A DNA stretch of 24,610 bases from a virus. The stretch lies in IMG/VR virus record IMGVR_UViG_3300035034_000828, positions 1-24,610 of that record; one strand, 5' to 3'. How positions within the stretch are numbered: position 1 is the first letter of the stretch; each line of letters begins with the position of its first letter. This document shows positions 1-12,524 of the stretch, one piece after another. The notes under the pieces were generated by a model. The model ran no database searches, was not told the origin of the DNA, and was given only the letters and a program-made list of their open reading frames with translations. Both the position numbers and the translations under genes were made by a program.

Positions 1-89
1 CACTGATTCCCTTATTCAAGAGGAACACACGTAATCCTGCGAAGTGGAAGCTCGTCAAGACATGGGTGCAATTCCCATTACCTCCACCA

Positions 90-174
90 CATGATCACTG
101 GAAGTTGGTTGCGCCAACCAATAGACAGAAAGATGCCTCTGTACGCGCGGAGGATACGCCAGTGATCATTTGAT
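90..174 (+). other. Intervening segment of permuted tmRNA with long hairpin
   Basis: ATGATCACTGG (91-101) and CCAGTGATCAT (159-169) form a perfect 11-bp stem that brings the end of the acceptor piece next to the start of the coding piece. In permuted tmRNA such a segment is cut out to give two RNA chains held by base pairing. Excision is inferred from that family. Confidence 0.75.
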
Positions 175-272
175 GGGGGTAAATTAGGTTCGATTGGCGG
201 TGGATATGAAGTGGCGTGTCGGCTTGGCCTAAACGTTATCTGGGCAAGAGTGAAAGCTCGAAAATTCTAAAT

Positions 273-320
273 GCAGCAAACGTAAATGCAGCACCTGCTG
301 AAATGGCAATCGCAGCCTAA
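273..320 (+). other. tmRNA proteolysis-tag reading frame
   Basis: The frame reads AANVNAAPAEMAIAA and ends in TAA at 318-320. The first or second GCA would be the resume codon. An AAN start and a hydrophobic A-x-A-A end are the usual pattern of tags that send rescued peptides to ClpXP. The hairpin TAAGCCTCTGGCTTA follows over the stop codon, as is normal for tmRNA. Cellular alphaproteobacterial tags usually begin ANDN; here the third residue is Val, so the tag is diverged but intact. Confidence 0.85.
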
Positions 321-461
321 GCCTCTGGCTTAGTTGCAACCGCCGATCAGTTCGGGGGTCCGAGGGAACCTAGCAACAGAATCCCTCAACTAATTCTGTC
401 GGCTGGTTGATGGACAGCCCGGCTTAGCAGCGGTCATCCACAAAATAAAAAGGAGCCCGAC

Positions 462-7402: not shown

Positions 7403-7481
7403 GCGCGAGTGGGCAAACAAGGTAAAGTCGCCACATTTAGACTGTGGAGTTATGCGGGTTCGATCCCCGCCTCGCGCACCA
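7403..7481 (+). tRNA. tRNA with anticodon TAG (Leu codon CUA), class I body
   Basis: Acceptor GCGCGAG/CTCGCGC, D-stem GGC/GTC with a 12-nt loop, anticodon stem CCACA/TGTGG with loop TTTAGAC, T-arm GCGGG-TTCGATC-CCCGC, A73, CCA. The variable loop is short (AGTTAT), unlike true tRNA-Leu. Confidence 0.78.
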
Positions 7482-7491
7482 AATAACCACA

Positions 7492-7671
7492 ATGAAACGA
7501 AAAACCAAATATACACGTGACTATTTAGCCCCACACGTGGCGCACGTGGCGCATGTGGACCATATAAATGGCGTACCTAACGATAATCGAATTGAAAATC
7601 TCCGGTTCTTGTGCCCCAACTGTCATCAACAGACGGATACTTGGGGACGTAAAAATGCCCGAGCGACGTAA
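7492..7671 (+). CDS. Minimal HNH endonuclease-like protein
   Basis: 59 aa. The core is the HNH motif HVDHINGVPNDNRIENLRFL followed by C-P-N-C-H and QTDTWGRKN. In full-length relatives an N-terminal domain precedes this; here only a short basic stretch and an HVAHVAHV repeat are present, so it is either a remnant or a very small enzyme. No clear Shine-Dalgarno precedes the ATG. The TAA (7669-7671) lies inside the D-arm of the next tRNA, which starts at 7657. Homing-type HNH genes commonly invade tRNA arrays and phage genomes. Confidence 0.65.
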   Translation: MKRKTKYTRDYLAPHVAHVAHVDHINGVPNDNRIENLRFLCPNCHQQTDTWGRKNARAT

Positions 7672-9648: not shown

Positions 9649-9729
9649 TGAACTCGACTGGTGTCGGGGACCGCTTCGAAAGCGAATCGCTCCGCAAGGA
9701 GTGGGGTTCGATTCCTCCGTCATCCACCA
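9643..9729 (+). tRNA. tRNA-Ser(CGA)
   Basis: Acceptor GGATGAT/GTCATCC, loop TTCGAAA (anticodon CGA), class II variable arm GCTCCGCAAGGAGT, T-loop TTCGATT, A73 (bacterial tRNA-Ser usually has G73), CCA. The first 6 nt overlap the preceding gene, including its stop codon. Confidence 0.87.
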
Positions 9730-9732
9730 ATT

Positions 9733-9819
9733 GGAGAGTGATCGGTGCTGGTGCACCGGGCTGTTTTGAAAGCAGAACGTCCCTACGGGGATGGGGTTCA
9801 ATTCCTCCGCTCTCCGCCA
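9733..9819 (+). tRNA. tRNA-Ser(TGA)
   Basis: Acceptor GGAGAGT/GCTCTCC, anticodon loop TTTGAAA on stem CTGT/GCAG, variable arm GTCCCTACGGGGAT, T-loop TTCAATT, G73, CCA. Its 3' half is nearly the same as that of tRNA-Ser(GCT). Confidence 0.92.
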
Positions 9820-11859: not shown

Positions 11860-11862
11860 CCC

Positions 11863-11949
11863 GGAGAGTGATTCAGGCTGGTGCCTGAGACCGGTTGCTA
11901 ACCGAATCGCCCCGCAAGGGGTGGGGTTCAATTCCTCCGCTCTCCGCCA
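11863..11949 (+). tRNA. tRNA-Ser(GCT)
   Basis: Acceptor GGAGAGT/GCTCTCC, loop TTGCTAA (anticodon GCT), variable arm GCCCCGCAAGGGGT, T-loop TTCAATT, G73, CCA. Its 3' half repeats that of tRNA-Ser(TGA). Confidence 0.9.
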
Positions 11950-12149: not shown

Positions 12150-12524
12150 ATGCAAGGACCCCGACTCTACATTCTGATGCGGACTGACCTCGATTCCATG
12201 AACCCCGGAAAGGGCATGGCGCAGGCAGCCCACGCGGCGAACATGTTCGCGGTCAGGGCGAGCCTCGCCCCCGGATATTCCGAATGGGCAGAACAAGGAT
12301 TCACGTTCGGTACGACCCTGGTCATGGGCGTGAATGAGGCGCAGCTTTACGACGTTGTCGAAAGCGCGCTGAGGGACGATCTTTACGCGGCAGTTATCCA
12401 CGATTCGTCCTATCCCATCCGTGACGGAGCCGTCACACACTTGATTCCGCTGGACACATGTGGTTATGTGTTCGTGGAAGGGGCGAGCCCCGACTACATA
12501 AGTGAACTGAGCCTGCATCCGTAG
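12150..12524 (+). CDS. Peptidyl-tRNA hydrolase, Pth2-like
   Basis: 124 aa, the usual Pth2 length. The signature MRTDLDSMNPGKGMAQAAHA (10-29) matches the Pth2 active-site segment R-x-D-L-x-M-x-x-G-K-x-x-A-Q-x-x-H-A. The C-terminal half is diverged but keeps VIHD and THLIPLDTCGYVFVEG in the place of the T-x-I-A-P-G region. Pth2 frees tRNA from prematurely released peptidyl-tRNA. Bacteria normally use Pth1, and Pth2 is archaeal, eukaryotic and sporadic in phages. It sits in a tRNA array with a tmRNA, a consistent context. Confidence 0.8.
   Translation: MQGPRLYILMRTDLDSMNPGKGMAQAAHAANMFAVRASLAPGYSEWAEQGFTFGTTLVMGVNEAQLYDVVESALRDDLYAAVIHDSSYPIRDGAVTHLIPLDTCGYVFVEGASPDYISELSLHP

Follow-up and report, generated by a model that had tools for sequence, protein, structure and literature searches.

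Many marine phages have previously been found to carry a split tmRNA, and the named relatives of the phage analysed here are among them. Among 402 phages, 133 distinct tmRNA structures have been described, 53 of them two-piece, and 50 of these 53 belong to marine or aquatic phages (PMC9004378). The same source covers the methylophage Melnitz and the pelagimyophages, an unrelated myophage group in which, as at our locus, a marine phage carries an alpha-type permuted tmRNA (PMC9004378). Permuted tmRNA is processed by tRNA enzymes, which leave an RNA of two pieces paired to each other (PMC11915505). Closer to the present case, the Sphingobium phage Lacusarx is a distantly related, syntenic siphophage and a distant relative of DSS3Phi8, and its description reports a tmRNA together with 24 tRNAs and proposes a counter-tagging role (PMC5648845); the DSS3Phi8 paper gives 24 tRNAs and leaves a tmRNA unmentioned (PMC4961962). 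A 2014 listing named about ten phages with ssrA, among them mycobacteriophages (Bxz1 group, Wildcat) and Bacillus phage G (PMC4131195), and the impression that phage tmRNAs are mostly one-piece, voiced in an earlier reading of this DNA from its letters (the sequence-only reading), agrees with that listing. The accompanying view of a split phage tmRNA as unusual is not supported, given the 53 two-piece structures and the presence of one in every DSS3P8-like phage that we checked. The tmRNAs of the Bxz1-group mycobacteriophages, Wildcat and Bacillus phage G are, we assume, one-piece.

Here we analyse a whole IMG/VR virus record of 24,610 bp (the window, starting at contig position 1). We consider it very probable that its first gene is a functional-looking, circularly permuted ssrA of a DSS3P8-like siphophage, serving ordinary trans-translation as a supplement to the host. 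To the known two-piece tmRNAs of phages the window adds one diverged sequence.

The tmRNA Gene and Its Parts

By blastn, the contig groups with the roseophages DSS3P8, vB_RpoS-V10, DSS3_MAL1 and MD18 and with Rhodobacter phage RcXuper, its MCP (capsid) region showing 76-79% DNA identity to five roseophage/Rhodobacter phage genomes. It has both the common capsid gene and the syntenic translation block of the DSS3P8-like siphophages and can be assigned to that group; judging from these relatives, its hosts would be marine Rhodobacteraceae-type bacteria.

The sequence-only reading had proposed a phage-encoded circularly permuted tmRNA at the start of the window and had suggested a search with the Rfam alpha-tmRNA model. 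That model (alpha_tmRNA, RF01849; gathering cut-off 50 bits) matches positions 10-391 on the + strand with 76.2 bits (E 2.5e-19), and the Rfam model tmRNA_permuted (RF04321; gathering cut-off 47 bits) matches 27-320, + strand, with 85.3 bits (E 2.5e-15). The following features were read at and beside the locus.

1-89, + strand: acceptor piece (3' half of a standard tmRNA), with CCA at 87-89; matched by RF01849 and RF04321
27-31, + strand: 5' arm of the P2 helix, ACACG, pairing with 215-219 (CGUGU); paired in 9 of 9 relatives
62-78, + strand: T arm, stem AUGGG/CCCAU, loop UGCAAUU; the stem covaries across relatives
79-85, + strand: 3' strand of the acceptor stem, UACCUCC; all seven positions pair with 175-181, U83 with G177
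90-174, + strand: intervening segment of 85 nt with an 11-bp stem (91-101/160-170); presumably removed on processing
175-391, + strand: coding piece (5' half of a standard tmRNA plus the mRNA-like part); within the RF01849 match, 10-391
175-181, + strand: 5' strand of the acceptor stem, GGGGGUA, with G177 in the G3-U70 pair; this stem, too, covaries across relatives
273-320, + strand: tag frame AANVNAAPAEMAIAA (273-317) and stop UAA (318-320); the RF04321 match ends at 320
462-1439, + strand: RlaP-like (NrdC.11-like) nucleotidyltransferase ORF (PF10127, E 1.1e-8; tblastn), separate from the tmRNA

Every element that had been named beforehand is present: the CCA closing the acceptor piece at 89, the coding piece from G175, the 7-bp acceptor stem between the pieces with G177-U83 as its third pair (G3-U70), the 11-bp hairpin between them, and the tag followed directly by a stop (TAA in the DNA). 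The acceptor piece lies upstream of the coding piece, which opens with GGGGG at 175. A one-piece reading of the locus was rejected, since the one-piece model RF00023 had no match reported there in the Rfam search and the permuted order is clear. ARAGORN made no tmRNA call at 1-391 while calling 26 tRNAs in the window. The Melnitz gene has a predicted glutamine riboswitch, whereas no riboswitch was found at the window tmRNA in the Rfam search.

Like the two-piece tmRNAs of alphaproteobacteria (RF01849/RF04321), the window gene combines this order with a G3-U70 acceptor stem, P2, a T arm, a resume region and a tag. G3-U70 is the alanine identity element, and position 3:70 is G:U in all 113 sequences scored. 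Translation of the tag probably resumes at the first GCA (position 273); most relatives have the register ANVN, which here would correspond to a start at the second GCA. As to the ends, the RF01849 match begins at window position 10, which is model position 40, and the RF04321 match at 27; because the window is the whole contig, the acceptor piece may extend beyond it on the 5' side. In DSS3_MAL1, MD18, RcXuper and the contigs L006 and L007, full-length model matches begin 41-55 nt upstream of each one's RF04321 start, and in DSS3P8, vB_RpoS-V10 and RpAliso the match begins at model position 40, as in the window. The coding piece probably ends near 391, an approximate 3' end taken from RF01849 and close to the 388 proposed earlier.

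Two parts of the molecule depart from the usual type. The T loop (67-73, UGCAAUU) departs from the usual alpha loop GGCGGUA, and the D-region (185-195, GGUUCGAU) from the alpha type GGAUCGAC; both differ from most DSS3P8-like orthologues, the D-region change being common to RpAliso. RpAliso shows the same paired departure of T loop and D-region, but with a canonical UUCGACU T loop. It is possible that the two departures represent a coupled change. Two contigs found with a window-like D-arm motif (L024 and L025) are not close orthologues: both are one-piece, with RF00023 scores of 69.8 and 67.5 bits.

Distribution among Phages

A permuted tmRNA occurs in all six named relatives (DSS3P8, vB_RpoS-V10, DSS3_MAL1, MD18, RcXuper and RpAliso) and in two IMG/VR relatives, that is, in 8/8 DSS3P8-like relatives checked. 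In this group the gene belongs consistently to the translation block. The named orthologues share with the window the permuted anatomy, the RlaP-like nucleotidyltransferase downstream, the hydrophobic-AA tag end and, in most, a long intervening stem. Beyond the group, permuted tmRNAs were found in the Erythrobacter phages XM05 and vB_EliS-L02 and in CcrRogue (phiCbK group); Sinorhizobium phage phiN3, fetched only for its nucleotidyltransferase, gave no permuted tmRNA match. A scan of viral contigs for one conserved 27-base motif gave at least 120 matches. In DSS3_MAL1 the gene is annotated as ssrA, and the other inspected relatives are without a tmRNA annotation at this place. Because ARAGORN misses the window copy and several deposited relatives are unannotated, RF04321 is worth running on roseophage genomes.

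Structural Constraint and the Question of Decay

Three helices with 17 pairs in total were compared across nine DSS3P8-like sequences: pairing holds in 100% of cells, and six pairs, one of them in the P2 helix, have changed on both sides. The score for covariation was 0.356, a value that none of 500 shuffles attained, and sliding the partners by 1-3 columns gave at most 0.047. The window has A-U at acceptor pair 7 and the 112 other sequences scored have G-C, which reads as a compensatory change private to the window copy. The tag frame and its stop are retained in all DSS-like relatives, at a mean column identity of 56%. A pseudogene reading was rejected on the covariation.

On the alpha model, the window gene scores 76 bits versus 294-311 bits for the tmRNAs of 12 sampled Rhodobacteraceae hosts. 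Because it falls so far below the host scores and receives no ARAGORN call, a loss of some tmRNA function is conceivable. The low score would also fit a host ssrA copy that the phage captured (an attachment site would be one route) and that now drifts as a neutral or decaying passenger, and ssrA is often the integration site of phages and islands (PMC11915505). This origin is nonetheless highly improbable, in view of the compensatory changes, one of them the window's own, the universal retention of the gene in the group, and the fact that the gene is present whole and not as a 3' fragment; moreover, DSS3Phi8 is described as lytic, and the att site proposed for it is a tRNA-Met, not ssrA (PMC4961962).

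The intervening segment also differs from that of the hosts, 85 nt versus 22-25 nt in 11/12 sampled Rhodobacteraceae. The folding energy of 55-200 was -54.2 kcal/mol, whereas shuffled sequences averaged -39.3 (z -3.9). A stem of 8-14 bp stands at the same place in 8/9 DSS-like phages; the stem sequences differ between phages yet pair within each phage, with a mean of 9.75 bp for a phage's own arms versus 4.1 for arms mixed between phages of the DSS-like group. The other viral contigs gave 10.8 versus 5.5, in a sample biased by a fetch motif that includes part of the spacer. More generally, the intervening segments of phage permuted tmRNAs have a median of 88-98 nt, most with a stem of at least 8 bp; in the 11 hosts with the 22-25 nt segment, the stem is 3-6 bp long.

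The Tag

Host tags were drawn from 12 genomes of one family, Rhodobacteraceae, reached via a 16S motif, and the tag survey used a simple script, not a covariance alignment. The window tag AANVNAAPAEMAIAA differs from all 12 of these host tags (type ANDNRAPVALAA, 12-13 aa). The other DSS-like phage tags are AANTNAAPVAQAIAA, ANTNAAPMEMAIAA, ANINNAPMEMAIAA, ANENFAPMEMRLAA and ANENFAPVEMAVAA, and one further tag contains ANDDRAPALAIAA, probably with an N-terminal extension. Compared with the DSS3P8-like orthologues, one Ala codon is added in the window tag (AANVN), as it is in L006. Among 74 unique tags of other viral contigs, a set that may include prophage or host fragments, LAA is the ending of 59 and IAA of eight. 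The window tag ends in -IAA, and a hydrophobic-AA degron closes every DSS-like tag. The window tag can be described as unlike those of hosts at the third residue and in length, with a conventional degron end that is typical of its phage group. The tag had earlier been called diverged, which is apt relative to the 12 Rhodobacteraceae sampled and not relative to its own phage group, where it is typical and keeps the common C-terminus.

The third-residue region bears on what such a tag might do. All eight unique host tags read AND, as against ANV, ANT (2), ANI, ANE (2) and AND in the DSS-like set, a contrast that would be expected if the host tag's conserved Asp (ANDN) had been exchanged for V, T or I, so that peptides rescued in infection avoided the host adaptor/protease route or were degraded differently. 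In the DSS3P8-like phages, the adaptor-facing part of the tag would then be altered (ANDN to ANVN, ANTN or ANIN), with the host adaptor bypassed and the ClpX end kept. If true, an adaptor-bypassing tag of this kind would mean that protein quality control is retuned by the phage. We think it rather unlikely: every DSS-like tag retains the degron, RcXuper and RpAliso retain an acidic residue and L007 the D itself, and D is also found in most other viral tags (47/74). Should the shift prove functional, the question why phages carry a tmRNA could well be tested on cultured Ruegeria phage pairs.

SmpB and the Proposed Mode of Action

No SmpB gene was found in the 11 phage records searched, by a search in which most control genomes gave a match. 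Because none was found in these relatives, the phage tmRNA presumably uses host SmpB, and a self-contained replacement of the host system, as raised by the sequence-only reading, is unlikely; a re-labelling of rescued peptides, its other suggestion, may occur. The same negative result, however, is what one would see if the phage RNA competed for host SmpB or AlaRS and so dampened host trans-translation, and a precedent exists in a molecule like that of mycobacteriophage DS6A, consisting of a tmRNA-like domain (TLD) only, which inhibits tmRNA, perhaps by titrating SmpB (PMC4131195). The DS6A type has no coding piece or tag, whereas the window has a tag frame and a 3' region; coding piece, resume codon, tag and stop are constrained in all DSS-like relatives and would be superfluous in a pure decoy. 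Interference of this kind therefore has, in our judgement, only a slim chance of being the role of the gene.

Ordinary trans-translation in infection, within the phage's translation-support block, is the most likely role, and by analogy the tmRNA would most likely supplement that of the host as phage tRNAs supplement host tRNAs. The setting supports this assignment, because it holds at least 26 tRNAs in the same block (ARAGORN), a PTH2 peptidyl-tRNA hydrolase and the RlaP-like nucleotidyltransferase. From its anatomy we infer for the window tmRNA a two-piece RNA that is charged and used in tagging. The precursor would be cut at both ends of the intervening segment by host tRNA-processing enzymes, and the two resulting chains would stay joined via the acceptor and P2 helices. 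Host AlaRS would recognise G3-U70 and charge the molecule, which host SmpB, EF-Tu and the ribosome would then use, with stalled ribosomes rescued in infection, during host mRNA degradation. The tagged peptide would pass to the host Clp protease through its -IAA end.

Genomic Neighborhood

Locus maps of the eight DSS3P8-like relatives show the RlaP-like ORF downstream of the tmRNA in each; homologues of this nucleotidyltransferase occur in about 1,500 phage records. Five of the eight relatives have a GOLLD RNA (RF02032) upstream of the permuted tmRNA, at a distance of 58-879 nt and in the same orientation.

L002, 8467-8900: GOLLD RNA match
L008, 3506-3939: GOLLD RNA match
L003, 7420-7883: GOLLD RNA match
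L005, 4119-4586: GOLLD RNA match
L006, 3970-4412: GOLLD RNA match

RcXuper, RpAliso and L007 gave no GOLLD match, and in the window the corresponding side of the tmRNA falls off the contig. In the two Erythrobacter phages, GOLLD matches below threshold lie about 5-6 kb away from the tmRNA. That GOLLD generally accompanies phage permuted tmRNAs was rejected, with matches in 0/40 other tmRNA-bearing viral contigs, and our literature search found no title on such a pairing.

Within the tRNA-rich block, the PTH2-type peptidyl-tRNA hydrolase occupies 12150-12521, and a small HNH endonuclease ORF (7444-7668) sits among tRNA-Leu genes, one of which overlaps it with its end and another with its start. 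Rfam matches to tRNA-Sec at 9732-9816 and 11862-11946 were rejected, since their anticodon loops, when inspected, are those of tRNA-Ser (UGA and GCU, respectively). These two tRNA-Ser genes are unlisted by ARAGORN, and further tRNA-Ser-like arms lie near 9650-9730.
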